A DNA stretch of 13,001 nucleotides from Deltaproteobacteria bacterium (GTDB lineage Bacteria > Desulfobacterota > Desulfobacteria > Desulfobacterales > ETH-SRB1), in assembly GCA_030627475.1 (NCBI GenBank), contig DAOURZ010000011.1:1-13001 (forward strand). The letters run 5' to 3'. The notes beneath the pieces are model-generated. The model was not told where the DNA came from and did not search any database. It was given only the letters and a program-made list of their open reading frames with translations. Positions 1-12,027 of the stretch are shown one piece after another. A program made the position numbers and the translations under genes. The stretch's first letter is position 1; each line of letters starts with the position of its first letter.

Positions 1-67
1 TAATAGCCCTATTTGCTGTCAAATTCCATTTCCAAACCATAAGTATCTGAAAAAGACAAAAAAACCG

Positions 68-86
68 GATCTTTCTTTAAAAGATC
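68..86. other. Small hairpin upstream of the retron element
   Basis: A 7-bp inverted repeat, GATCTTT at 68-74 and AAAGATC at 80-86, encloses a 5-nt loop. It is followed by TTACGTTTT. It may be a weak terminator of a gene left of the window or part of the leader of the retron transcript. No coding region was recognised in 1-94 and no convincing promoter was found there. Confidence 0.3.
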
Positions 87-94
87 TTACGTTT

Positions 95-220
95 TGATAC
101 CGGGGCCACAGATTTTAGAGTAGTAGTATAGCGTTACGCTATGCAAGCACGTTGCCTTGCTTCGCACTGTCGCAACTATCCTGCGACGGTTGTATCAGGT
201 AAAATAAGACCCCGGTATCA
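95..220 (+). ncRNA. Candidate retron msr-msd ncRNA with a1/a2 repeats
   Basis: TGATACCGGGG at 95-105 is exactly complementary to CCCCGGTATCA at 210-220, which matches the a1/a2 repeats that close retron ncRNAs. Between them are three hairpins: ATAGCG/CGCTAT (128-133 with 137-142, loop TTA), GCAAG/CTTGC (143-147 with 156-160) and ACTGTCGCA/TGCGACGGT (166-174 with 182-190, one G-U pair, 7-nt loop). The last is a candidate msd stem. The element ends 8 T's before the reverse transcriptase ATG, the usual place for a retron ncRNA. In known retrons the RT copies the msd part and joins the DNA 2'-5' to a branching G just after a1; G111 or G105 are possible, but this cannot be settled by eye. At about 126 nt it is compact. 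Main doubt: the fold was made by eye without covariation. Confidence 0.62.
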
Positions 221-228
221 TTTTTTTT

Positions 229-1449
229 ATGGAACAAAAAATGGATCACGGATACCTGTGCAATAATAAAGAAAAGTTTATCAAGAATCTCAGGCTTACT
301 AATCAAAGAGCTGAGGTTGAACCGGAACTTGTTGATCTGATTGAGGCCTATGCCAGACTGAGGTTAAATCAGGGCAAAGAGATTCGTTATTACGGTAACA
401 GGATAAGTAGCAAAAACAAAGAACTACAGGAGTTCCTCAATAAAAACAGACATCTTGATCACAGGATTCTGAACTTCCTGGCCTCCTATTTTTTGGAAAT
501 GCAAAAGAGGAGATTCAGGTGTGTATTTACTTCATCCCACCTTGCCCACTTTCTTAAGATATCCAATAGAAGATTGAACTGGCTGACTAACGACAGGATA
601 AAACATTATACCTGTTTTGATATAAAAAAAAGAGATGGGAACAAAAGAGAAATCTTTGCACCAAGGTCTTATCTAAAAGGAGTCCAAAGAAAAATATTGG
701 ACGATCTTTTACAAAGGGTGGGATTAAATTCCCACGCTGAAGGATTTCGAAAGAGAAGATCCATTCTCACCAATGCCGAAAGACATATAGGGAAAAAAGT
801 CGTTATAAAAATGGATATAAAAGATTTCTTCCCCAGTATAACATTTAAAAGAATACTGGGGATGTTTATCTCATTGGGTTATCCTCGCCAGGTATCCTTG
901 CTGCTGACAAGATTAGTTACTCATGATGGAAGATTGCCAATAGGCGCTCCGACAAGCCCTGCCATAGCCAATATAGTAAGTACAAAATTGGACAAGAGGT
1001 TTTCCGGGCTGGGAGATAAAATGGGCTTTGATTACTCCCGCTATGCAGATGATATGACTATTTCGAGTAATAATAGAGATATAACTAAAATAATACCTTT
1101 TTTAAAGGAGATAATAATAGAAGAGGGATTTGAAATAAATGAAACAAAAATGAGGATATTGAGAAACGCGGGAAGACAAAAAATAACCGGTATTGTGGTA
1201 AACGAAAAGCCTAATATTGATAAAAAAGAAATAAAAAAACTAAGGGCGGTAATCTATAACTGTCACCATAAAGATATTAAGCATGAGGTGAAAAAATGGG
1301 CCAAAAAGGAAAAAAGCCTGAACAATCCCTCCGATTACACCCTAAACGAGTTCAAGTCCTCATTATTGGGGAAGATAAATTTTGTAAAAATGGTGAATCC
1401 CAAGGCAGGCAACAGGCTTCTTGAACAACTTGGACAATTAAGCATATAA
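229..1449 (+). CDS. Retron-type reverse transcriptase
   Basis: An RNA-directed DNA polymerase of the retron family, expected to make msDNA from the adjacent ncRNA. Visible motifs, numbered from the ATG at 229: APRSYLKGVQRKIL (144-157), the retron region-X signature NAERH (182-186, consensus NAxxH), KMDIKDFFPSI with the catalytic Asp (195-204), IGAPTSP (238-244), RYADD catalytic pair (271-275) and KITGIVVN (318-325), which matches the retron region-Y VTG motif. The polymerase region starts near residue 100. The first ~95 residues are an N-terminal extension I do not recognise. No maturase or HNH domain is seen, arguing against a group II intron, and the SP of GAPTSP argues against a diversity-generating RT. 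The ATG at 229 follows eight T's and lacks a ribosome site; ATG 241, with GGA at 231-233, is a plausible alternative. The nucleosidase gene starts 3 nt downstream. Confidence 0.9.
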   Translation: MEQKMDHGYLCNNKEKFIKNLRLTNQRAEVEPELVDLIEAYARLRLNQGKEIRYYGNRISSKNKELQEFLNKNRHLDHRILNFLASYFLEMQKRRFRCVFTSSHLAHFLKISNRRLNWLTNDRIKHYTCFDIKKRDGNKREIFAPRSYLKGVQRKILDDLLQRVGLNSHAEGFRKRRSILTNAERHIGKKVVIKMDIKDFFPSITFKRILGMFISLGYPRQVSLLLTRLVTHDGRLPIGAPTSPAIANIVSTKLDKRFSGLGDKMGFDYSRYADDMTISSNNRDITKIIPFLKEIIIEEGFEINETKMRILRNAGRQKITGIVVNEKPNIDKKEIKKLRAVIYNCHHKDIKHEVKKWAKKEKSLNNPSDYTLNEFKSSLLGKINFVKMVNPKAGNRLLEQLGQLSI

Positions 1450-1452
1450 GCG

Positions 1453-2247
1453 ATGAGATATTTCATAATAGGGTATATAACACCAATCCTGGTATTAATC
1501 TCAATAAACATCAGCGTAGCTGACATCGGAATAATAGTTGCCTTTAATTCAAATCTGGAACAGATAAAAAAAAGCCTGAAGATAAAAAAGATTTCAAAAA
1601 AGGCCGGAAGGGAATTCTATTCAGGCAAGATAAATAATATAGATGTTGTTCTGGTAAGATCTCCCATGGGCAAGGTGAATAATGCCATAACCGCTCAGGC
1701 CCTGTTATCTCATTATCCTGTAACATCCGTCATTTCCATAGCTCCGGCAGGCTCAATAAACAAAAGCCTGAACATTGGGGATATCATCATTGCAACTGAA
1801 GTCTTTCAGCATGATTTTGGCACCATCAAGCCCTATGGTTTTATCTGGAGCAAAGTCCCCGATGGCACTAACAGGGATGAACCTGGCTATAATATGGCGG
1901 ATAAACGGCTCAGGAAATTGGCCATCCTTTATGCCAATAATAAGAAAACCAAAAATAGAATCATAGAAGGTATAATAGTTACCGGAGATCAGTTTATATC
2001 TGCTCAGAATAAAAAGGAGTGGCTCTTTAAGAAATTCAAAGCCATGGCCGTTGATATGGGAGCCGGTGCAATTGCTCAGGTTTGTTATGCAAACCGGGTC
2101 TCATTTTGTATCTTAAGAATAATTACAGATAAAGCCAAAATAGGCGCCCGCATCAATTTTGAGAAATCTGTTCCGGGGTATCAATCAGATATAGATATTT
2201 TGAAGTTCGTAAAAAGTATCATTCAAAGATCACAAGACAAAAGATAG
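1453..2247 (+). CDS. Exported PNP/MTA-SAH nucleosidase-fold protein
   Basis: Member of the nucleoside phosphorylase superfamily (PNP_UDP_1), closest in layout to 5'-methylthioadenosine/S-adenosylhomocysteine nucleosidase, which cleaves the N-glycosidic bond of adenine nucleosides. A hydrophobic N-terminus (residues 3-22, ending SVA-D) looks like a signal peptide, although this enzyme family is normally cytoplasmic. The core follows: IGIIVAF (25-31), RSPMGKVNNA (69-78), SIAPAGSIN (95-103), IVTGDQFIS (175-183), AVDMGAGAIAQVC (199-211) and RIITDKA (222-228). Against E. coli MTAN, the catalytic Asp197 is kept (D226), but Glu174, which holds the ribose hydroxyls, is Gly203, and Glu12 aligns with Asn34. 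Activity may be lost or altered. The start lies 3 nt after the RT stop, suggesting translational coupling. Nucleosidase-type proteins are known effectors of some defence systems, including ATP-cleaving PNP proteins and ribosyltransferase effectors of certain retrons; an effector role here is inference. Confidence 0.8.
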   Translation: MRYFIIGYITPILVLISINISVADIGIIVAFNSNLEQIKKSLKIKKISKKAGREFYSGKINNIDVVLVRSPMGKVNNAITAQALLSHYPVTSVISIAPAGSINKSLNIGDIIIATEVFQHDFGTIKPYGFIWSKVPDGTNRDEPGYNMADKRLRKLAILYANNKKTKNRIIEGIIVTGDQFISAQNKKEWLFKKFKAMAVDMGAGAIAQVCYANRVSFCILRIITDKAKIGARINFEKSVPGYQSDIDILKFVKSIIQRSQDKR

Positions 2248-2269
2248 CCTGTGGTTAGAAGATATTATT

Positions 2270-3970
2270 ATGTACAATATTAATAAAATATCGTTTTTTA
2301 TACTGGCCTTTCTCTTACTGTTTGCCGGCAATACACTTGCCTTGGGCAAATACTACCTTCTCGGCAAGGGAAACATCGCAAGAGATGAAGGCAGAATTGA
2401 AGAGGCCATAAAATATTACCGGGAATATATTGAATCCCACCCAACCACGCGGGATGTACACTCCGCTCAATACCATAAAAGAATACAATATTACATAAGA
2501 AATCTGGTCATAGTCTATTCAAACTTACTTGACTTATACAGGGAAAACAGGGAAAGCGAGGCAGTCGATAAATGGATCAATAAATTAAAGGGGGCCTATT
2601 TAAGCAGTAGTTTTGGATCAAAAAATATGTATAGCCTTGCCTTAATTTATCTTGACAATAGCTATTTAGAAGATGGCACAGACATTTTCAGGCGAATAAT
2701 CAAGGAACAAAAAGAATATTATGCCCCTTTTAACAATAAGGTTACTCTAAGAGCCTTTTCAAAACTTCTTAAGATATACCAATCTCAGGGAGAAGATGAA
2801 AGACTGGCTTCACTGCTTGAATCCCTGAAATCGAACTATCCAACCCCTGATTTTGATCTGAAGGATAGATACAAGCTTGCCACGTTATATCTGAGACACG
2901 GGTTAGAAGCAGATGGAAAGAAATTACTAAAAGAAATAATTGATGATGAAGAATACGATCCTGATTCTTCCAGCATTAATACCCTGATAAAAACATCCTT
3001 AAAATTATTAAGCATTTACCACAAGAAAAAAGATAAAGACTCCATTAAAACATTATTTGAACAGATATCTCAGAAATACCCTGCAGAAAATCTCTCCCCC
3101 AACAACATATATAAAATTGCCGTGAGCTATCTGAAATGTGGGAAAAAGCAAGAAGGCTCAAGTCTTCTTGTAGAAATAGCCGATCAGTACTCATATACAA
3201 CCTTTGGCCGAAAGGCTTTGTTTCTGTTAGGCAGACTATCCCAGAGCAATGAGGATTGGGATTCTGCGATAAAGTATTATGCTGAATATATTAACAGATA
3301 TCCGGCCCCACCCTTTTTTGCCCTTAAGGCATATTCCAGATTGATAGATTCTTACTGGTCAAGAGATGCAGATCCGGAGTTGGTTCAGAATGAGATGAAA
3401 AAGCTTTCAGACATAGTCAATGATATATCAGATTTCGAGACCTCGCTGAATCTGGCCAGAGATTTGAAATGGAAAGGCATGGATCAACTCTCATCAGCTA
3501 CCTTTAGCCTTGGGCTATCTTCTGCCAGGGAATTTATTTCAGAAAATGAAGATACATACATGGCATTAAGAGCGCAATGGATCATAGAAAAATATGCCTA
3601 TGCCTTAGAACGATATGATTTAGTTCAGGAAAGCGCCAATAGTGTCCTAACGATTGCCGACAAATTAAAAAACATTTCTTTAAAACCGGCAAAAAAAGAA
3701 AAGATAAAATATATAAAATCCCAGACCTATCTCTGGCTTGCAAAGGTTTACGGTAATAAGAAAGATTATCCGAAGGCTAAAAAATTTCTGAAAATGTTTA
3801 TTAAAGCCCATCCCAACCATAAAGAAATCAATTATGTCAGATATGAGTTAGGCAAGGTTTATGAGGATGCAAACCAGGCAGATGAAGCAATAAATATGTA
3901 TAAAATGGTTGAAGATAGTATGTGGAAAAAGAAGGCACGCAAAAGACTGTTAAAGATTCAAAACAGATGA
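2270..3970 (+). CDS. Exported tetratricopeptide-repeat protein
   Basis: A 566-residue protein with a Sec-type signal peptide: Lys near the start, hydrophobic run at about 8-24 and likely cleavage after LALG or nearby. The rest is almost entirely helical repeats of TPR type. Clear ones are at about 34-57 (GRIEEAIKYYREYIESHP), in the middle (DWDSAIKYYAEYINRYPAPP) and at the C-terminus (KKDYPKAKKFLKMFIKAHPNH, then ADEAINMYKMVEDS). Such proteins act as periplasmic or outer-membrane scaffolds, comparable in layout to YbgF or BamD, but no specific family was recognised. No lipobox Cys follows the signal, so it is probably soluble or exported. It lies 22 nt after the nucleosidase gene and overlaps the next gene by 4 nt (ATGA), which supports one operon. 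The partner is unknown. Confidence 0.8.
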   Translation: MYNINKISFFILAFLLLFAGNTLALGKYYLLGKGNIARDEGRIEEAIKYYREYIESHPTTRDVHSAQYHKRIQYYIRNLVIVYSNLLDLYRENRESEAVDKWINKLKGAYLSSSFGSKNMYSLALIYLDNSYLEDGTDIFRRIIKEQKEYYAPFNNKVTLRAFSKLLKIYQSQGEDERLASLLESLKSNYPTPDFDLKDRYKLATLYLRHGLEADGKKLLKEIIDDEEYDPDSSSINTLIKTSLKLLSIYHKKKDKDSIKTLFEQISQKYPAENLSPNNIYKIAVSYLKCGKKQEGSSLLVEIADQYSYTTFGRKALFLLGRLSQSNEDWDSAIKYYAEYINRYPAPPFFALKAYSRLIDSYWSRDADPELVQNEMKKLSDIVNDISDFETSLNLARDLKWKGMDQLSSATFSLGLSSAREFISENEDTYMALRAQWIIEKYAYALERYDLVQESANSVLTIADKLKNISLKPAKKEKIKYIKSQTYLWLAKVYGNKKDYPKAKKFLKMFIKAHPNHKEINYVRYELGKVYEDANQADEAINMYKMVEDSMWKKKARKRLLKIQNR

Positions 3971-5004
3971 ACAGGTTAAGAACAAAAATACTATTGTTTT
4001 CATTGATAATACTGGTTTTTCATCCAGTTTTTACATATGCATGGGAATGTGAGGTAACACTTGATGGGCCAAATGTAATAAAAGAAGGCCAGACAATTAC
4101 CTTAAGCGCTTCAGGTGCTCCTGCCGGTGGTTCCTATTCCTGGTCCAATACGCCCAACCTTGTGCCAAATGGTTCAACAGCACAACTAACAGGTTATAAG
4201 CCTTTATCTTCAGAATATATTTATGTTACAATGACATATACAAGCCCTAAAGGTAAAAAATGTCATGCAAGGAAAGCTATATGGGTCTGTATATGTTATG
4301 TAAAGATAAACGGCCCCGAGGAGATTAAGGTAGGCGATCCGCCTATTACCTTAACTGCAGAAGGAGATCCATCCGGAGGAACTTATGAATGGTCTGCTAC
4401 GCCAGGACTGGTTCCTGATGGTTCAATTGCCCAATTCACAGGGCAGGAGCCAGGTGATGTAACCATTGAGGTTACCTATACAACCCCTGATGGAAAGGTA
4501 TGCACTAATACACATACTGTTACAGTATTAAAAGAGTGTTCAGTTGCCATATCAGGACCATCAGTGATCGGTGTAGAAAATCATATTACTCTCACTGTAT
4601 CCGGCAGCCCGGAAGGTGGGACATATTTCTGGAAAAAAATTCCAGGCCTTCGCCCAGGCACCACTTCAGCTAGTTTCACAGGGCAGGAACCAGGGGATGT
4701 AGCTATTGATGTTGTTTACAAGCCCCCTGAGGGTGGTGAACCATGTTCCGCTACACATAATGTAACCGTCTTTGGTTTAGAATCAATTGCCGGACCATCT
4801 TGTGTTAATTCCGGAACAACATTAACCGGGGGGGATTTCAGCATTATTACCAACCCATCCGGATTTGAGGATCTTGTGATAGTCAAACCACTATCATTTA
4901 GCACATTATCTCAATCTGCCGAAGTGACAGTAACAGCCTATAGTGGTACAGGAGCAGGGCGGATGAGGCAACAACGACGATTACAGTTGTTAACAGCGAT
5001 ATAA
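3967..5004 (+). CDS. Exported Ig/PKD-like repeat protein, N-terminal part
   Basis: The start at 3967 is chosen because it opens a signal peptide (MNRLRTKILLFSLIILVF, likely cleavage after TYA) and overlaps the TPR gene stop as ATGA. An upstream in-frame ATG at 3922 would lie deep inside that gene. After the signal come three repeats of about 80 residues, each built as Cys-x-V-x-I-x-GP, GG-x-Y-x-W, a FTG-x-EPGDV turn, YT-x-P-x-GK-x-C and a closing VTV. This is an Ig/PKD-like beta-sandwich with a conserved Cys pair. Repeats 2 and 3 are the most alike. From about 4957 the frame changes: the last ~15 residues before the stop at 5004 are basic and unlike the rest, whereas the natural continuation lies in another frame. 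A surface or periplasmic binding role is likely; no specific function was recognised. Confidence 0.75.
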   Translation: MNRLRTKILLFSLIILVFHPVFTYAWECEVTLDGPNVIKEGQTITLSASGAPAGGSYSWSNTPNLVPNGSTAQLTGYKPLSSEYIYVTMTYTSPKGKKCHARKAIWVCICYVKINGPEEIKVGDPPITLTAEGDPSGGTYEWSATPGLVPDGSIAQFTGQEPGDVTIEVTYTTPDGKVCTNTHTVTVLKECSVAISGPSVIGVENHITLTVSGSPEGGTYFWKKIPGLRPGTTSASFTGQEPGDVAIDVVYKPPEGGEPCSATHNVTVFGLESIAGPSCVNSGTTLTGGDFSIITNPSGFEDLVIVKPLSFSTLSQSAEVTVTAYSGTGAGRMRQQRRLQLLTAI

Positions 5005-5627
5005 AGAGTGGTAAGTCTATTTCTTTTGAGATTCCTAATTACGTAAAAAAACCACTGAAAGTAATAGGGCTTGCAGACAAAATAGATATTGCTGCAAAAG
5101 ACGATTTTAAGGATTTTAAAGAGTGTTGTGTATTTGGCATGGCACAATCAAAAGATGGGAGTTTTAGTGTCAGCTTGTCTGTTGATGCCGGTCCATTCAC
5201 TATCGTAGGGGTTCCAATACCACCCAAGTTCAAGAAATGGGTTGTAGCAGATTTATTAAATGTTACTCTTTCCGGAGTTGGAAGTGTTGGGTTGACTGGA
5301 AGTTACAAGGCTTGTGAGGACAACACAACATGGCGTGGAGGAGGAGATCTCATTGCTGAACTAAAGTTGGGGGGCTTGGTTAATGCAGAAGTTCCCAAGG
5401 TCATTATTCTCAAAGGAAAGATAGCAGGTTCGACTATCGTAACTGAAAAGCTCAGAACAGAATTAACAAACTTGAAGATTACAACTAATTGGGGCGGGCT
5501 AACGGCAAGCGGGAATGTGACACTCCTAATAAGAAAAAGGAAAATTCTAAATTTTGAAGTAAGCAGAACCTGTTTTGAGAAAGATAATCTTTCAACAGTA
5601 ACGATTGCCCTTCCTTCTCTGGAATAA
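4959..5627 (+). pseudogene. C-terminal part of the Ig-like protein, out of frame
   Basis: Reading from 4959 gives ADEATTTITVVNSDIKSG, a smooth continuation of the beta-rich chain before the shift, running without a stop to 5627. Adding one G to the GGG at 4957-4959 would join both parts into a single protein of about 553 residues (3967-5627). The shift may be a homopolymer sequencing error, a real mutation or phase variation. If the break is real, ATG 5139 could start a separate 162-residue product, but it has neither a signal peptide nor a good ribosome site. The C-terminal region is rich in beta-type sequence (GVGSVGLTGSYKAC, LTASGNVTLLI) with Cys residues, and no known family was recognised. 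The next gene follows after about 27 nt. Confidence 0.7.
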
Positions 5628-5654
5628 GAAAGGTGTATGAGAGGAATACCTAAT

Positions 5655-6833
5655 ATGAATACAATACAAACAACAGGCATTAAATATACCATCACTTCCA
5701 TGTTGTGCTTAACTATTTTTTTTATAAATGGGATTAGCTATGCTGAGGAAAAGAAGTACCCCATGAAAGTGACGATTATAACCAGAGACCAAGCAAAATA
5801 TGACACTCCTGAAAATACCCTTTTCGCTATACGTTCTGCTTTGGTAAATGAAGACCTCGAATGGTCAGATGAAACATTAACTCAAGAATCACTAGAAGAA
5901 CAAAGGAGACTTCTTGAAAAGGCCGGCATTGATCCCAACGTTGACTTTAATTTGGAAAAAGATGTAAAGGATACTTTCATAATTGACAAGATAGAATACA
6001 AGGATGCTGTTGTGTTAATAGTTGAGGATCAAGATAAAGACGGTAGTATTATTAGGATGCCCTTTACATTTGTGAAGGAAAATGGAAAGTGGAAAATGAC
6101 CAATAAATTTGCAGGTGACGAAGAACTGCACGAGCATCTGGATTATATCAAGCCCGAAGAAATCATATCCTCTACCATAAAAATCCACCCGGACAGATGG
6201 AACCTCAACTGGTACAACTGGATAAAAGAACATATGGAGGGAAAAGAGTGGATTGAGCACTTTGCCGAAAAAGTCACTATCCTCTGCATGATAGCCGACT
6301 TTAAAGACAATCAAGGGAAACCCTATAGTATAAAAGAAATAGTTCCTGAGACAATCTTATTAAATTATCTGCTACATCCCCAGCCCTGGAGGTTTAATAG
6401 CGAGGAAAAGACAACTTTAATCGTAAAATCAAAAGAAAATCAATACCTCAAAGAAAGGGAAGGCTTTAAAGAGTGGCATAACGAAAGCAAGTTATTAAAG
6501 AAATACAAAAGCCCTGTGATGCTGGTTAAATTCAACAAATTTAAGGCCATGAAAACCCTTCCCGAGATGATCCCCGGAAAGGAACATGAGGCAACCCTTT
6601 CAGGTGAGCTAAAAAACGGAAAACGATTCAAGGGAACAACAAAAATCATAATAACCGGGTGGAATGTGAAACATAGCTGGAAATGGAATCACCCTGATTG
6701 GCTGAACTCAGAAAAAGATATAGATAACTGGTGGAATAAAGAAAATGACTTTGAGGATTGGTGGAAAAAAACAATAAAAACGCACAAGCGACAAAACAAC
6801 AGAAAAGAAAAAGGTTGTAGCCGCACGAAATAA
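5655..6833 (+). CDS. Exported protein with NTF2-like region and Trp-rich tail
   Basis: No named family was recognised. The start at 5655 is preferred over ATG 5637 because GAGAGGA lies 9 nt upstream and it opens directly into a signal peptide (hydrophobic 11-28, likely cleavage SYA-EE). Residues ~50-160 (DTPENTLFAIRSALVNEDLEW, later MPFTFVKENGKWKMTNKF) resemble the layout of small NTF2/SnoaL- or DUF4878-like domains of exported proteins: a helix after PENT, then strands ending in GKWK. The middle is mixed alpha/beta. The C-terminal 55 residues carry nine Trp, with WKWNHPDW, NWW and DWW, followed by a basic tail (KTHKRQNNRKEK). It is the last gene of the RT-nucleosidase-TPR-Ig series, about 27 nt after the previous frame. 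The export signal and context suggest a partner of the TPR and Ig-like proteins; this is inference. Confidence 0.7.
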   Translation: MNTIQTTGIKYTITSMLCLTIFFINGISYAEEKKYPMKVTIITRDQAKYDTPENTLFAIRSALVNEDLEWSDETLTQESLEEQRRLLEKAGIDPNVDFNLEKDVKDTFIIDKIEYKDAVVLIVEDQDKDGSIIRMPFTFVKENGKWKMTNKFAGDEELHEHLDYIKPEEIISSTIKIHPDRWNLNWYNWIKEHMEGKEWIEHFAEKVTILCMIADFKDNQGKPYSIKEIVPETILLNYLLHPQPWRFNSEEKTTLIVKSKENQYLKEREGFKEWHNESKLLKKYKSPVMLVKFNKFKAMKTLPEMIPGKEHEATLSGELKNGKRFKGTTKIIITGWNVKHSWKWNHPDWLNSEKDIDNWWNKENDFEDWWKKTIKTHKRQNNRKEKGCSRTK

Positions 6834-6929
6834 GTTCGCATACATTCTTAATGTAGTGCCATGCAGTAATGTCCGGTTAGGTTTTTGGGCTACCAACTTA
6901 AAGCGGGACAGTTTCTGCTATGTCGGCTC

Positions 6930-6964
6930 TGAAGAATTTCTTCATTCAAAATTAATTTTTTTTT
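6930..6964 (+). terminator. Weak candidate terminator after the retron operon
   Basis: TGAAG at 6930-6934 pairs with CTTCA at 6940-6944 around a 5-nt loop, and a T-run at 6956-6964 follows after a gap. The stem is short and AT-rich, so this is only a possible stop for the upstream operon. The 252-nt gap 6834-7085 shows no gene. Confidence 0.22.
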
Positions 6965-7048
6965 ATCTAATGAGTTTAGGGTTCGCACAAAAATGGGATT
7001 AATATTTCAAACCGTTTAGTTTTAGTTTACATCACCCCAGTTTTCTCC

Positions 7049-7077
7049 TTGATAAAATTACTTTTTTTAAATAAAAT
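7049..7077 (+). promoter_or_regulatory. Sigma-70-type promoter for the methyltransferase operon
   Basis: TTGATA at 7049-7054 and TAAAAT at 7072-7077 are each one mismatch from the -35 and -10 consensus, separated by exactly 17 nt. Transcription would start near 7084, only about 2 nt before the ATG at 7086. The methyltransferase has no Shine-Dalgarno site, so a leaderless or near-leaderless mRNA is likely. Confidence 0.5.
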
Positions 7078-7085
7078 ATTTAATT

Positions 7086-7820
7086 ATGGGTTATGTATTT
7101 AATTTTAATGATGCTGTAAATTACGATCAGTGGTATGACAAATCACAAAACAGATTTGCCGCTGACCTTGAATTTCGACTTATGCTGGATATGCTGAAGC
7201 CGATGGATGGGGGTTCTCTTCTTGATATAGGGTGTGGTACCGGTGCAAGCCTTCTTCCTTTTTTAGATAGAAAACTACATATTACAGGCATTGATCCATC
7301 TCAGTATATGCTTGATATTGCTTTTAAAAAAGTTGGGCATTGCGTGGATTTACATCGCGGATTTGCTGAAGATCTACCTTTTGATGATAATTCATTTAAC
7401 TATGCTTGCTTTATAACAACACTGGAATTTGTTAAAGATCCCCAAAAAGCAATTGAAGAAGCATGCAGGGTTGCAAAAGACAGGATTTTCATAGGTGTAC
7501 TTAACAGGTATGCTCTTAAAGGTGTACAACTGCGAATTAAAGGGATATTCACCAGAAGCATTTACAACCGGGCACAGTTTTTCAGTGTCTGGGAATTAAA
7601 GAAAATCATCCGTACCATTTTAGGAGACGTTCCTGTATCATGGAGAACTGTTTGTCAGTTTTTATCAGCATCAGGGAAAATAACCAAAGGGATAGAACAT
7701 TCGAAACTGGTTCAAAGATGCCCGTTTGGTGCCTTCGCAGGTATTGTGTTTGCGCCTGTTCCACGCTATAGAACCATACCGCTTTCAATAAAACAGACAA
7801 GCGATGCATTGGCAGGTTGA
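7086..7820 (+). CDS. Class I SAM-dependent methyltransferase
   Basis: A cytoplasmic Rossmann-fold methyltransferase of the type-11 group, 244 residues, using S-adenosylmethionine. SAM-binding motif I is LLDIGCGTGAS (45-55). The acidic end of strand 2 is in ITGIDPSQ (D70), and AEDLPFDDNSFNYA (94-107) is the adenine-side motif followed by the strand-4 region. The N-terminus NFNDAVNYDQWYD is typical of the family start. The substrate cannot be read from the sequence. It is the first gene of a tight set with amrS, a UbiA prenyltransferase and ubiX, so a quinone or prenylated-aromatic substrate is possible, but it is not clearly UbiE/MenG. The stop overlaps the first possible start of the next gene. 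No ribosome site precedes the ATG, in keeping with the promoter that ends just upstream. Confidence 0.8.
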   Translation: MGYVFNFNDAVNYDQWYDKSQNRFAADLEFRLMLDMLKPMDGGSLLDIGCGTGASLLPFLDRKLHITGIDPSQYMLDIAFKKVGHCVDLHRGFAEDLPFDDNSFNYACFITTLEFVKDPQKAIEEACRVAKDRIFIGVLNRYALKGVQLRIKGIFTRSIYNRAQFFSVWELKKIIRTILGDVPVSWRTVCQFLSASGKITKGIEHSKLVQRCPFGAFAGIVFAPVPRYRTIPLSIKQTSDALAG

Positions 7821-7827
7821 AAGAACT

Positions 7828-8844
7828 ATGGAAGCATATCTTTACGAATCTCTTAACAATGAAAAAAAAATAAAATGCAATCTTTGCAACCATCGTTGCG
7901 TCATAAAAAATGGCAGACGCGGAATATGCGGTGTACGGGAGAATAAGGAAGGAATTCTGAAAACCCTGGTTTATGGAAAGCTCATTGCAAGGAATATAGA
8001 CCCGATTGAAAAAAAGCCTTTGTTCCATGTTTTGCCGGGAAGTCTATCTTATTCTGTAGCAACGGTGGGCTGCAACTTCAAATGCCTGTTTTGCCAGAAT
8101 GCAGACATCGCCCAGATGCCTTCAGACCATAATGGAATGATAATGGGTAATTTTTTTACACCTGAAGATATTGTGAACGCCGCTATACAAGGAAACTGCA
8201 AAAGCATAGCTTATACTTATACTGAACCCACCGTATATTTTGAATTTGCATATGATACCGCCAGGATAGCGCATGAGAAAGGAATTCTGAATGTATTCGT
8301 GACAAATGGGTACATGACTTCCGGGGCTATTGAGATGATAAGTCCTTATCTTGATGCGGCAAATGTTGATTTAAAGGCTTTTAACAAAAAATTTTATAAG
8401 GAAATCTGCAAAGCTGAAATAGAGCATGTGAAAGAAACTTTGAGACATATGAAGTCGCTTGGTATTTTTATCGAAGTAACAACGCTTCTTATTCCGGGGC
8501 TGAATGATGACAGGCATGAGCTTGAAATGCTGGCTGAATTTATTGTAGAGTCTCTTGGCCCGGAAACACCATGGCATATAAGCGGATTCTATCCAACATA
8601 TAAACTTCTTGATCGACCATCCACACCTCTTGAGACACTTATTATTGCCCGTGAGATAGGTATTAAAACAGGCTTGAAATATGTTTATACAGGTAATGTG
8701 CCAAGTGAAAACGGTGAAAACACGTTTTGTTATAACTGCAACAATCTCCTTATTGACAGACAAGGTTTTTATGTAAAAAAGAACCTTATAGAAAACGGTA
8801 AGTGTGCACATTGTGGAGCACATATCGACGGAATAGGGTTGTAG
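7828..8844 (+). CDS. amrS: AmmeMemoRadiSam system radical SAM enzyme
   Basis: A radical SAM protein of the AmrS family, named after its usual company with AMMECR1 and Memo proteins; its reaction is not settled. The cluster-binding motif CNFKCLFC gives ligands C82, C86 and C89, numbered from ATG 7828. It is preceded by a family-typical Cys-rich N-terminus (CNLCNHRC at 17-24, RRGICGVREN) and the segment DPIEKKPLFHVLPGS. The C-terminus (CYNCNN ... CAHCGAHI) forms a four-Cys zinc-ribbon-like end. ATG 7828 is chosen because family members start with an MEAxLYE-like sequence; ATG 7804 would add 8 residues overlapping the methyltransferase. It is followed 2 nt later by the UbiA gene. Neither AMMECR1 nor Memo is present in the window. 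Confidence 0.88.
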   Translation: MEAYLYESLNNEKKIKCNLCNHRCVIKNGRRGICGVRENKEGILKTLVYGKLIARNIDPIEKKPLFHVLPGSLSYSVATVGCNFKCLFCQNADIAQMPSDHNGMIMGNFFTPEDIVNAAIQGNCKSIAYTYTEPTVYFEFAYDTARIAHEKGILNVFVTNGYMTSGAIEMISPYLDAANVDLKAFNKKFYKEICKAEIEHVKETLRHMKSLGIFIEVTTLLIPGLNDDRHELEMLAEFIVESLGPETPWHISGFYPTYKLLDRPSTPLETLIIAREIGIKTGLKYVYTGNVPSENGENTFCYNCNNLLIDRQGFYVKKNLIENGKCAHCGAHIDGIGL

Positions 8845-8846
8845 TG

Positions 8847-9713
8847 ATGCTGAAACGGATTCTGGCATACGGAAAGATGATAAAGTTCAGCCATACTGTA
8901 TTTGCTCTTCCCTTTGCTTTTTCGGCAGTAATACTTGCCCAGCGCCAATATCCAATAATTTTATCGGATATCTTTTGGGTTTTGCTTGCCATGATTGGAG
9001 CACGCTCCTCTGCCATGGGCTTTAACAGGATAGCAGATGCAAGCATAGACGCAAAGAATCCACGTACATCCGATCGCGAGATACCATCAGGAAGGCTTTC
9101 TTTATCTTCAGCAATATTATTTGTATTTTTTTTTTCAGGTCTTTTTATATTTTCTTCAGCAATGCTCGGGAAGCTCTGCTTTTATCTTTCCTTCCCTATA
9201 CTTGTTTTACTTTTCTCCTATTCCTATGCAAAAAAATTTACATGGCTTTCCCATATTTATCTGGGTTTCGTCATATCTCTTGCCCCTATAGGAGCATGGA
9301 TAGCCATTGCCAAAACCTTTTCGTGGCCGGTTCTTATCCTTTCAATTGCTCTCATGACCTATATTGCCGGCTTTGATATTCTTTATGCATGTCAAGATAT
9401 TAAATTTGACAGGAATGAAGGGCTTTTTTCCATACCTGCTCATTTCGGTATAAAAAAAGCGCTTATTATAGCTTCTATTATACACTTTGCTTCTTTTTGT
9501 TTTTTCTTTCTGATCTATATTGTTTTTGATATGAACCTTCTGTACTTTTTCGCAGTAGTTATAATCGGACTTTTATTAATTATTGAGCACCGGCTCGTTA
9601 AACCGGATGATCTCAGCAACGTTAATTTTGCCTTTTTTCATGTAAACAGTTTAATTGCCATAACTTTATTTCTCGGTATCCTTGCAGACGAGTTGGTCAG
9701 GAGGTGGATGTGA
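8847..9713 (+). CDS. UbiA-family prenyltransferase (MqnP-like)
   Basis: An integral membrane prenyltransferase, 288 residues, that attaches a polyprenyl chain to an aromatic acid. Two Asp-rich motifs that bind Mg and prenyl diphosphate are intact: NRIADASIDAKNPRT (60-74, with D64 and D68) followed by REIPSG, and DILYACQDIKFDRNEG (177-192, with D184 and D188). Several strongly hydrophobic stretches account for the usual bundle of membrane helices. The sequence type and pairing with ubiX suggest the menaquinone futalosine-pathway enzyme MqnP (1,4-dihydroxy-6-naphthoate prenylation) or a 4-hydroxybenzoate prenyltransferase; these cannot be separated here. ATG 8847 is chosen because AGGG at 8835-8838 lies 8 nt upstream; GTG 8844 is adjacent. 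The 3' end overlaps ubiX by 4 nt (GTGA). Confidence 0.87.
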   Translation: MLKRILAYGKMIKFSHTVFALPFAFSAVILAQRQYPIILSDIFWVLLAMIGARSSAMGFNRIADASIDAKNPRTSDREIPSGRLSLSSAILFVFFFSGLFIFSSAMLGKLCFYLSFPILVLLFSYSYAKKFTWLSHIYLGFVISLAPIGAWIAIAKTFSWPVLILSIALMTYIAGFDILYACQDIKFDRNEGLFSIPAHFGIKKALIIASIIHFASFCFFFLIYIVFDMNLLYFFAVVIIGLLLIIEHRLVKPDDLSNVNFAFFHVNSLIAITLFLGILADELVRRWM

Positions 9714-10303
9714 ACAAAAAAATTGTAGTGGCCATATGCGGGGCTTCGGGGTCTATATACGGAATCAGACTTCTCAAGGCTCTTTTAAAAAATCCGGTAA
9801 AAATATATCTTGTAATATCAAGAGTCGGCTACAAAGTACTTGAGCATGAAACTGGTTACAAAGGTGAATCCTTTTCATCTTTTTTAAAGGATAACGGTAT
9901 TACATTTAATGAAAAAGCTTGTTTATATACATACAATCAGGATGATTTTTTTGCTCCTCCAGCCAGCGGATCCTTCAGGAATGACGGCATGGTTATTATC
10001 CCATGCTCAATGAAAACACTTGGAGCAATTGCATCCGGTATGGCAGATAACCTTATTCATAGAGCTGCTGATGTAAATCTGAAGGAAAAACGTCCGTTGA
10101 TTCTGTTGCCAAGGGAAACGCCGTTAAGCATTATTCATTTGAAAAATATGTACGTGGCAGCTAAAGCCGGCGCTACTATCATGCCTCCCTCACCCTCATT
10201 TTATCACAACCCTGAAAATATCTCCGACCTTGTAGATTCCGTAATTGCAAGGGTTCTTGACCATATTAAGATTAAACACGATCTTGTTGAGCAATGGGGA
10301 TAA
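9710..10303 (+). CDS. ubiX: UbiX-family flavin prenyltransferase
   Basis: Makes prenylated FMN from FMN and dimethylallyl (mono)phosphate, the cofactor of UbiD-type decarboxylases. The flavin-binding GASGSIYGIRLL (11-22), the PCSMKTLGAIASG segment (98-110), NLIHRAADVNLKEKRPLILLPRETPLS (114-140) and AGATIMPPSPSFYHNP (153-168) are all family signatures. The length, 197 residues, is normal. The GTG at 9710 is chosen as the start because AGGAGGT at 9699-9705 lies just upstream; the GTG at 9704 would sit inside that ribosome site. It overlaps the UbiA stop as GTGA, so the two are probably translationally coupled. With MqnP it would serve as MqnM in menaquinone synthesis, but the partner UbiD-type decarboxylase (MqnL) is not in the window. 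Confidence 0.92.
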   Translation: MNKKIVVAICGASGSIYGIRLLKALLKNPVKIYLVISRVGYKVLEHETGYKGESFSSFLKDNGITFNEKACLYTYNQDDFFAPPASGSFRNDGMVIIPCSMKTLGAIASGMADNLIHRAADVNLKEKRPLILLPRETPLSIIHLKNMYVAAKAGATIMPPSPSFYHNPENISDLVDSVIARVLDHIKIKHDLVEQWG

Positions 10304-10311
10304 AATCCTGA

Positions 10312-10336
10312 TTGTGTCAACGATATGACAAATTTT
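10312..10336. terminator. Candidate bidirectional terminator between ubiX and fliW
   Basis: TGTCA (10315-10319) and TGACA (10326-10330) form a short stem, extended by TT/AA with one bulged G, and are followed by AATTTT on the + strand. It lies in the 32-nt gap between convergent genes. The stem is weak. Confidence 0.3.
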
Positions 10337-10761
10337 CAAAAGACAGGATATTTGTGAGAATATGAGCTATCATGGATAACCATCTGATCAGCTTCATATC
10401 TTTTTATGTTGATAAGAAGCGGACCGATTAAATTGGCTGTTATCTTATCAGGTACACCTTTAGAGGTATTTACCACCACATAAATTTCCACGTTCTTTTT
10501 CCCATCCGTTTCCCACGACATTTCCTTAAGCGTCTGCGTTAGATCAACCGAATAATCCGGCTTGAAAAGACAAGGATTAATAATCACAAATGCCAGGTCA
10601 GGGTCATCCACACACTGGTACCAGTAAAATGGTCGCGTTTTTTTACGCTCCAGAATAATAAAGTATTTCCTTCCCGGAAAGCCGGGCATATCGGCCGGCA
10701 TGGTGATAATCTTTTTTTCCTCAATCTGAATCGTTCCAAACTGTGTGGTTTCTATTTTCAA
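10336..10761 (-). CDS. fliW: Flagellar assembly factor FliW
   Basis: A small cytoplasmic protein that binds CsrA (and flagellin) and relieves CsrA repression of flagellin translation. Family features are GFPGRKYFIILE near residues 27-38, PFYWYQCVDDPDLAFVI and the C-terminal ITANLIGPLLINIKR. The start is set at TTG 10761, giving 141 residues, because AAGGAG (complement of 10769-10774) sits 7 nt before it and family homology begins there with KIETTQFG. An ATG at 10839 would add 26 residues unlike the family. It lies 85 nt downstream of csrA on the same strand, and the two likely share a transcript. Its ribosome site contains AAGGA, a CsrA-type core, so CsrA could act on it; this is inference. 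Confidence 0.9.
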   Translation of the reverse strand: MKIETTQFGTIQIEEKKIITMPADMPGFPGRKYFIILERKKTRPFYWYQCVDDPDLAFVIINPCLFKPDYSVDLTQTLKEMSWETDGKKNVEIYVVVNTSKGVPDKITANLIGPLLINIKRYEADQMVIHDSSYSHKYPVF

Positions 10762-10846
10762 TACCTTACTCCTTAAACCTAAATTGAGCAATTTTTGCGA
10801 ATCCTTATGCATCAAGATCACAGCACATTTCTTCCCCAAAAATCGT

Positions 10847-11092
10847 TCAACTTAGGTTAAAACCTTTTTTCCGCCAGAGACGAGCTGCCTTTGCAACATC
10901 ATCGGAAATTCCTTGCGATGAGTTGAGGTTCTCTTGCCTGATTTTTTCATAAACCTCATGCCTGAGGATAGATATTTGTTTTGGGGCATCAATACCTATT
11001 CTCACACTTCCTCTGCTGATTTCAAGAACACTGATAACAATATCATCACCAATGTTAATCCGTTCACCAATTTTCCTTGTTAGTACAAGCAC
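10847..11092 (-). CDS. csrA: Carbon storage regulator CsrA
   Basis: RNA-binding dimer that binds GGA-containing leaders and blocks or stabilises translation; in FliW-bearing bacteria it controls flagellin synthesis. The sequence MLVLTRKIGERINIGDDIVISVLEI, then RGSVRIGIDAPKQISILRHEVYEKI, is the full family core. The 81-residue length includes a C-terminal extension (GISDDVAKAARLWRKKGF) as in FliW-type CsrA proteins, the part thought to contact FliW. It starts with GTG (complement of 11090-11092), with AGGGAG (complement of 11098-11103) as ribosome site 5 nt upstream. A sigma-54 promoter candidate lies about 77 nt upstream by predicted start. No other flagellar gene is in the window. Confidence 0.95.
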   Translation of the reverse strand: MLVLTRKIGERINIGDDIVISVLEISRGSVRIGIDAPKQISILRHEVYEKIRQENLNSSQGISDDVAKAARLWRKKGFNLS

Positions 11093-11448: not shown

Positions 11449-12027
11449 ATGCCTTTACTGCAAAATGAACCGGATAGAGTATTCACTTATAAAGATTATT
11501 TAACATGGAATGACAACAAAAGATGGGAATTGATAAACGGAGCTGCATACAACATGGCCCCCGCCCCGTCTGTGAATCATCAAAGAGTTTCAAGACAATT
11601 ATTGTTGCAAATCGGAATTTTTTTATCTGATAAGCCTTGCGAAGTCTTTTCTGCTCCTCTTGATGTGAGATTGCCTGAACTAAATGAAAAAGATGAAGAT
11701 ACTAAAAATGTGGTTCAGCCTGACATAGTTGTGGTTTGCGATTCCTCAAAATTAGATGAAAAAGGGTGCCAGGGAGTGCCTGATCTGATTATTGAAATCG
11801 TTTCACCTTCAAGTGCTTCTATAGATAATATTAAAAAGTTGAACCTGTATGAAAAGAATGGTGTAAAGGAATATTGGATTGTGCATCCGATATATAAAAT
11901 TGTAACGATATATAAAATAATGGAAAACGGTTTATACGGAAAACCGGAAACCTATTCTGAAAAAAATAAGATAGAAGTTGAACTCTTAAAAGGATTGACC
12001 ATAGATTTGAGTCAGGTTTTTTGCTGA
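11449..12027 (+). CDS. Uma2 family PD-(D/E)XK nuclease-fold protein
   Basis: A DUF820/Uma2 protein of 192 residues with the restriction-endonuclease-like fold; the family's biological role is poorly known. Fold residues visible are E27 in RWELINGA, D92 in VQPDIVVV, E116 in LIIEIVSPSS and K129/K130 in the following helix. The ending VKEYWIVHPIYKIVTIY is also typical. The start is supported by GGAG at 11438-11441, 7 nt upstream. It has its own candidate promoter with inverted repeats. The DUF2065 gene follows after 36 nt with its own ribosome site, so the two may or may not share a transcript. These genes are often solitary and mobile between genomes; no partner was seen. Confidence 0.88.
   Translation: MPLLQNEPDRVFTYKDYLTWNDNKRWELINGAAYNMAPAPSVNHQRVSRQLLLQIGIFLSDKPCEVFSAPLDVRLPELNEKDEDTKNVVQPDIVVVCDSSKLDEKGCQGVPDLIIEIVSPSSASIDNIKKLNLYEKNGVKEYWIVHPIYKIVTIYKIMENGLYGKPETYSEKNKIEVELLKGLTIDLSQVFC

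Follow-up and report, generated by a model that had tools for sequence, protein, structure and literature searches.

A retron-like operon with predicted exported partner proteins and a hypervariable RNA hairpin in Thermodesulfobacteriota and Nitrospirota

To our knowledge, the retrons described so far act through effectors located in the cytoplasm or the inner membrane. One source describes nucleoside deoxyribosyltransferase (NDT)-type effectors in type II retrons (Retron-Eco1), a loss of membrane integrity caused by Retron-Eco6 (Ec48), and the phage nuclease DenB as the trigger reported for retron Eco2 (PMC12405507). According to another, the multicopy single-stranded DNA (msDNA) of Eco8 combines a branching G, two RNA stem-loops and one or more DNA stem-loops (PMC12887533). 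In this work, comparative genomics was applied to a retron-like operon of a Deltaproteobacteria bacterium, in which the gene for a retron-family reverse transcriptase (RT) is followed by genes for a nucleosidase, a TPR protein, an immunoglobulin (Ig)-like protein and a fourth protein, termed here the last protein, all with predicted export signals. The window, i.e. the whole stretch of DNA analyzed, is the complete 13,001-base contig DAOURZ010000011.1 of a draft genome (assembly GCA_030627475.1; 2.07 Mb, 483 contigs, 90% complete).

The reading that we favor, and to which we give an even chance of being right, is that of a retron whose executors work at the envelope and whose msDNA hairpin turns over in an arms race. 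Judged from sequence, we propose that the operon represents a new retron type; it may instead belong to PADLOC type XIII. No description of the operon or of a hypervariable retron hairpin was found by title and start of abstract in the literature searched, which was mostly non-subscription and had the main classification paper outside its scope.

Recurrence and co-inheritance of the operon

A first-pass annotation, made by a model from the DNA letters, had read the RT and four exported genes as a possible retron class acting at the envelope. Its spacings were reproduced (a gap of 3 nt from the RT gene to the nucleosidase gene, 22 nt from there to the TPR gene, and a 4-nt overlap of the latter with the Ig gene), as were the RT motifs NAERH, GAPTSP, YADD and ITG, while the proposed nucleosidase and TPR identities were borne out by a PNP_UDP_1 match at 8e-43 and by TPR family matches. 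Overlooked were the TatZn gene for a small Tat-signal, zinc-ribbon protein, a broken reading frame in the Ig gene, and the hypervariable RNA hairpin (Table 1). The RT matches RVT_1 at 2.7e-23 and retron RT models at 9.5e-105 at best, and scores 230.2 bits with the NCBIfam St85 RT model, slightly under the cutoff of 235. It is of the retron kind, with YxDD and an upstream Asp; D196 and YADD are invariant across 29 aligned RTs.

Fourteen loci, including the window, were selected among those fetched by an RT identity of at least 47% to the window's RT, without use of neighboring genes (window, L170, L171, L172, L010, L011, L173, L174, L013, L012, L015, L189, L014 and L190). They span Thermodesulfobacteriota and Nitrospirota, and their RTs form one clade (support 100/98) in a 50-row tree, and this clade excludes the other 36 RTs, whose aligned part exceeds 220 aa. 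The order RT-nucleosidase-TPR, whose recurrence (with Ig) in distant genomes had been proposed as a check, is present in 14/14 loci; TPR identity to the window's protein ranges from 27 to 92%. An Ig gene occurs in 13 of the 14, being fused to the TPR protein in L012 and absent from L015. TatZn is likewise found in 13, namely 11 by search, the window by the gene end that it retains, and L190 by an open reading frame (ORF) and motif. The last protein is encoded in 8/10 testable loci, the contig ending beforehand in L010, L170, L174 and L014. TatZn, the RNA, RT, nucleosidase and TPR make up the steadier core, with more variable exported parts downstream. A second, partial operon copy in genome G108 (L175:6748-9212) was excluded from the gene counts; its RT match is shortened (query 188-404), its hairpin differs, and its contig ends in the nucleosidase gene.

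A further 74 loci with more remote RTs (L016-L089) yielded 70 RT ORFs; when two genes before and four after the RT were scanned within the reach of the locus, relatives of the nucleosidase, TPR or Ig proteins occurred in 0/70. In 389 sampled genomes of the class, the RT (E <= 1e-60) was found in 8 and the nucleosidase (E <= 1e-25) in 9, i.e. the same 8 and G116; the G116 protein, an ordinary MTAN-type (5'-methylthioadenosine/S-adenosylhomocysteine, MTA/SAH) nucleosidase without a signal peptide, was not counted as an exception. Matches of the non-coding RNA (ncRNA) model in these 389 genomes were confined to the 8 RT genomes and, within them, to the RT loci. The RT was also found in 3/395 genomes of the phylum (E <= 1e-90, source genome included) and in 4/8 genomes of the genus. 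Over locus pairs, which are not independent, the four proteins RT, nucleosidase, TPR and TatZn show correlated identities (Spearman 0.68-0.85), and this fits the expectation from co-inheritance.

These counts bear on the alternative raised in the first-pass annotation, read-through from a retron into an operon unrelated to it, and on mere chance adjacency to envelope genes. In favor of such accounts, within one genome tight spacing is the sole thing to explain; against the recurrence throughout the clade, the congruent divergence and the lack of the set elsewhere, we give them scarcely any credence. Read-through in particular is very unlikely, because the set recurs with the RT, the RT and the nucleosidase occupy the same 8/389 genomes, and no terminator-like site was found on the + strand near the RT end (across 1-7100 such sites are at chance level, with 6 found and 5.7 expected).

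Retron-like RNA and its hypervariable hairpin

The stretch 85-232 has a better predicted fold than 199/200 shuffles (z -3.5). The RNA that separates the TatZn stop from the RT start has the predicted structure of an msr-msd RNA, including a1/a2 repeats and a DNA stem; the a1/a2 arms, the conserved TTTTAG, two constant stem-loops and the template hairpin follow in this order, and TTTTA pairs with TAAAA adjoining a2, just inside the arms. Over 9 sequences, 97.1% of cells are paired in the 38-pair structure, a level reached in 0/500 shuffles and compared with 38-41% for slid versions, although we drew the structure on the same 9-sequence alignment, a bias in its favor. Pairing is 100% and 93.3% in the constant helices 3 and 4 and, with fixed columns, 97.5% in helix 5, the template hairpin. 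Of the 11 pairs altered on both sides, 7 are in this hairpin, where 7/9 pairs change in this manner.

A covariance model built from these RNAs gave a strong match in 12/15 copies, 3 of them held out (L011, 103.6 bits; L015, 77.0; L012, 71.7); the window, which is in the training set, scored 130.5 bits, and the match in L014 was weak (27.8). The model had no match in L189 or L190 at E <= 1 and none in 15 other RT loci, and an Rfam scan of the window gave no match. In L189, a different stretch flanked by inverted repeats (3080-3220, by eye) precedes the RT.

The template hairpin was compared in 14 copies (window, L170-L175, L010-L015 and L190; L189 excluded). Its shape is constant, with 8 bp and a 7-nt loop that begins with ACT in 11 copies, and its sequence is not, all 14 left arms being distinct. 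Watson-Crick pairs make up 110/114 pairs, with 2 G-U pairs and 2 mismatches, a count raised by delimiting the arms by eye for complementarity. Among four congeneric operons, the number of synonymous substitutions per site (dS) is 0.08-0.20 for RT, nucleosidase and TPR, whereas the 23-nt hairpin differs at 5-14 positions per pair. In alignments of 2.2-2.5 kb that begin at TatZn (or the window start) and take in most of the nucleosidase gene, the hairpin surpasses in divergence all 2,171-2,473 23-nt segments not touching it, in 6/6 congeneric pairs; the aligned range was narrowed after a first, longer run. L171 and L172, for instance, differ by 2.7% overall and have identical RNA flanks (0/72 and 0/34), yet differ at 14/23 hairpin positions; in a second clade, the two G108 copies differ at 2/72 bases of the 5' flank as against 10/16 arm bases. 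A search of 4 congeneric draft genomes for the window's hairpin string (at most 3 mismatches) returned 1 match, itself.

As a control of hairpin speed, 9 other pairs of retron RTs were aligned upstream, and 2 were usable, with similar divergence and non-coding upstream DNA. In these (L111/L113 and L152/L155, 96.9% and 95.2% RT DNA identity), upstream hairpins are by eye conserved or nearly so, while the L091/L092 pair (85%) shows upstream hairpin variation, also by eye; with only two usable pairs, the exceptional status of our hairpin rests on few controls. Ec67-type loci of E. coli were rejected as a matched control, since those covering most of the query were at least 98.4% alike (13 genomes) and thus too similar; in the same comparison the L028 query had no match.

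In the favored reading, the RT would prime at the guanosine of TTTTAG and copy the 3' part of the RNA, yielding a short msDNA that contains the 8-bp hairpin. The letters of this hairpin would turn over fast as the target of an arms race, e.g. with phage nucleases or msDNA-binding proteins, only its shape being needed. Turnover far above that of synonymous sites with pairing kept would make the hairpin a natural readout of selection on msDNA hairpins. Alternatively, the RT might rewrite its own msDNA hairpin, copying one arm by fold-back and returning the product to the locus, which would leave a paired 8-bp barcode in each lineage, while TatZn would carry RT-msDNA to the periplasm to act with the nucleosidase and the TPR and Ig proteins; we regard this as a long shot.

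In 14/14 copies having both parts (13 loci and L175), the first triplet of the RNA 5' arm is, by eye, the stop codon of TatZn (TGA or TAG). Because of this overlap, a ribosome terminating at the TatZn stop would mask a1, which suggests that TatZn translation may be coupled to RNA folding.

Predicted exported partner proteins and their proposed envelope function

The apparent signal peptides of the partner proteins, noted in the first-pass annotation, exceed the background by a simple criterion that we set up (not SignalP), which demands a positive n-region, an uncharged hydrophobic 11-mer and a small-x-small site. Positives are 14/14 nucleosidases, 12/14 TPR, 13/13 Ig and 6/8 last proteins, as against 1/14 RTs and a background of 294/2176 crude ORFs, the operon genes among them; a Tat motif was found by rule in 10/11 TatZn proteins as against 17/2176. 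With nearly all other proteins of the operon carrying an export signal, the question arises of how msDNA could act across a membrane.

The natural candidate for a bridge or carrier between cytoplasm and periplasm would be TatZn. Window positions 1-97 hold only its C-terminal end, the 5' part of the gene lying beyond the contig edge; this end, QIPFPNHKYLKKTKKPDLSLKDLTF before the stop codon, matches the C-terminus of the pre-RT protein in relatives. The relatives lie directly before the RT, are 123-136 aa long (91-92 aa in L014 and L190), have CxxC pairs, end approximately in IPFP...KP...F and mostly begin with [ST]RR-x-F-[LI], with NRRQFM in L015. The L171 copy had no Pfam match at E <= 0.1 and no NCBIfam match at 0.01; among 5.8 billion proteins, 24 relatives were found by a word-based search.

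The nucleosidase, which adjoins the RT in 14/14 loci and is the putative co-encoded effector, passes two curated MTAN cutoffs (NF004079, 180.3 against 169; TIGR01704, 112.9 against 73.8), and its match to cytoplasmic MTANs starts at residue 25, directly after the predicted signal. In E. coli MTAN numbering, with the catalytic residues E12, E174 and D197, an Asp occupies the D197 position in 14/14 loci by eye. The enzyme could be harmless outside the cytoplasm and kill only when infection blocks its export, so that it accumulates inside; RT-msDNA would add a second lock. Infection in general disturbs the membrane, and the signal peptide, the catalytic Asp in 14/14 and the mostly kept base-binding residues suit this idea; it leaves the export signals of TPR, Ig, TatZn and most last proteins unexplained, and we consider it quite improbable.

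Downstream of the operon (7086-10303) lie methyltransferase, radical SAM, UbiA-like and flavoprotein genes, possibly for quinone biosynthesis. The nucleosidase might then be an aminodeoxyfutalosine nucleosidase serving menaquinone-like genes, given that such enzymes are among its PDB matches and that a flavoprotein gene (by Pfam) and the presumed UbiA-like gene lie at 8802-10303. In relatives, however, the gene follows the RT, the stretches fetched did not show the downstream genes, and the export signal is conserved; synteny thus disfavors an MqnB role, which we hold to be extremely unlikely.

The Ig gene is a single ORF of about 555 aa in relatives such as L171, L172, L010 and L011. In the window it is broken by mutation or assembly error into 345 codons and a remainder in another frame. 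The Ig-like character claimed for it holds, and the ORF proposed is part of the gene. The L171 protein is predicted to have tandem Ig domains and a C-terminal sheet of long strands (predicted local distance difference test, pLDDT, 81.7), and many of its top Foldseek matches are Ig-type or adhesion proteins.

Such folds could also mean that a retron-derived RT and its msDNA regulate an exported, polymorphic surface protein of Ig/RHS type for use against competitors or in attachment, and not in phage defense. In L190 (1566-6467) the Ig start runs on into MopE motifs, RHS repeats and a Tlde1 domain, and the last protein of L012 ends in a Laminin_G domain, both of which, like the tandem Ig fold, point to surface or contact functions. 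RHS was, however, observed in L190 only. Scans of the Ig proteins from the window, L171, L011, L173 and L012 did not reveal it, the L172, L010, L013 and L189 proteins can be aligned with L171 over their full length, and the L170, L174 and L014 proteins are incomplete. The 117-aa ORF that follows the L190 RHS gene has no Pfam match. We judge this explanation unlikely, though with a real chance of being correct.

The last protein has 53 relatives. The Trp-rich tail ascribed to it is present in the window and absent from shorter relatives of 266-287 aa in L011, L173, L189 and L219. Its predicted fold is of low confidence (pLDDT 68.4), with NTF2-like matches, none of them at E <= 0.001. The motif KHSWKW occurs in 2/17 aligned proteins and KHRWKW in 8/17. 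Its halves look modular, P0167 having mainly the Trp-rich half and P0173 mainly the NTF2-like half. One 91% relative from this search, P0121, is labeled Methanococcoides, an archaeon, and probably comes from a mis-binned contig.

Returning to the retron with envelope executors, the RT-msDNA complex would sense or restrain a response to stress, most likely to phage infection. The exported proteins would assemble at the envelope, with TPR as scaffold and Ig as surface part, and the response would be executed by the altered MTAN-like enzyme or, in L190, by the RHS-Tlde1 part. Synthesis of msDNA, protein export, action at the envelope and defense against phage are all inferred from sequence.

Several observations weigh against this reading. 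The msDNA would be cytoplasmic and the proteins under its control periplasmic, which would set a membrane between them. By eye, the nucleosidase has Gly or Ser at the E174 position in 14/14 loci and N, S, T or A at the E12 position in 12/14, with Glu only in L014 and L190, so that the MTA/SAH nucleosidase triad E12/E174/D197 is incomplete; E174 of MTAN contacts the sugar hydroxyls. Since E174 is replaced throughout and E12 mostly, activity is uncertain, and the protein may have an unusual substrate or serve only in binding. L015 has no recognisable Ig or last gene, and L189 retains RT and exported genes, yet neither TatZn nor a match to the RNA model was found there. The last-protein family (E <= 1e-10) occurs in 11/389 class genomes, the 8 RT genomes and G300, G200 and G292. 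Recurrence of the exported genes without an RT, named at the outset as a contrary finding, is thus seen for the last gene, which stands alone in G200 and G292 and is not exclusive to the operon, while the nucleosidase tracks the same genomes as the RT; G300 (TPR-Ig-NTF2 without RT or nucleosidase) is uninformative as an exception, its contig ending at the TPR gene. In the first, longer alignment, which included TPR, the hairpin ranked top in only 2/6 pairs. In three of the 4 failing pairs one member is L170, which has a shorter TPR gene that is probably misaligned; in the fourth, window versus L171, 27 outside segments reach the hairpin's 5 differences, with a maximum of 6 elsewhere. Finally, viral contigs searched for the RT gave a best identity of only 38%; as they also yielded no relatives of the last protein, a phage-borne origin was rejected.

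Table 1. Coordinates of the operon features in the 13,001-base window
Feature	Coordinates	Strand	Basis
TatZn gene 3' end (small Tat-signal, zinc-ribbon protein)	1..97, stop codon 95-97	+	C-terminus match to relatives
Retron-like ncRNA (msr-msd)	95..220; a1 95-107, a2 209-220	+	covariance model, covariation
Candidate branching G in conserved TTTTAG	118	+	conservation; role inferred from retron anatomy
Two constant RNA stem-loops	126..162 (126-144, 145-162)	+	covariation, helices 3 and 4
Hypervariable template hairpin	167..189; 8-bp arms 167-174 / 182-189, loop 175-181	+	
Retron-family RT, 406 aa	229..1449	+	RVT_1, PADLOC retron RT models
Predicted exported MTAN-like nucleosidase (PNP_UDP_1), predicted signal peptide approximately residues 1-23	1453..2247	+	
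Predicted exported TPR protein, 566 aa	2270..3970	+	TPR_6 1.8e-21
Predicted exported tandem Ig-like protein, N-terminal 345 aa, frame broken near ORF 3' end	3967..5004	+	
Ig gene out-of-frame remainder, C-terminal beta-rich domain	5139..5627	+	match to Ig C-terminal part of L171, L172, L010 and others
Predicted exported last protein, NTF2-like N-terminal domain and Trp-rich C-terminal part	5637 or 5655..6833	+	

Farther along the window, adjacent genes on the - strand (10336-11092) are presumably CsrA-like and FliW-like, and 11449-12027 encodes a Uma2-family putative restriction endonuclease (Pfam 8.1e-32).

Comparison with known systems

Among PADLOC models, the likeness is to retron type XIII, the window's RT scoring highest with RT_XIII (349 bits) and nearly as high with RT_III-A (329 bits), an order reversed for L014. 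The operon differs in that myxobacterial RT_XIII loci have other neighbors. Type-specific accessory proteins were not matched in PADLOC here, nor among the neighbors of the RT_XIII RTs L087 and L030; because the latter are unmatched too, the library may lack such models. A type XIII label, "ARM + WHSWXW", which was not found in the literature searched, resembles the TPR protein and the KHSWKW of the window's last protein. In PADLOC at E <= 0.01, the nucleosidase has two weak partial matches ("Effector, PN-superfamily", E 0.0018, and PDC-M60C, E 0.005); the TPR protein has one weak generic match (E 0.00033), and the last protein and its 16 relatives were without any match.

Immune effectors with a purine nucleoside phosphorylase (PNP) domain that cleave ATP are comparable as phosphorylase-fold effectors in defense, if the operon has such a role; they are cytoplasmic, unlike the predicted exported nucleosidase. 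Diversity-generating retroelements (DGRs) likewise have an RT beside exported Ig-fold surface proteins and fast-changing sequence. Among the PADLOC models compared, however, our RT has its best matches with retron models, and the variable part is the hairpin of the RNA itself, whose window string occurs once in 4 congeneric drafts.

With Retron-Eco6 the operon would share an effect aimed at the envelope; it differs in that its partners carry export signals and no effector with two transmembrane segments was recognized in it. Type II retrons (Retron-Eco1) are alike in combining an RT, an msr-msd RNA and an enzyme acting on nucleoside bonds in one operon, whereas the enzyme here has an MTAN/PNP fold and a signal peptide and is accompanied by TPR, Ig, TatZn and NTF2-like proteins.

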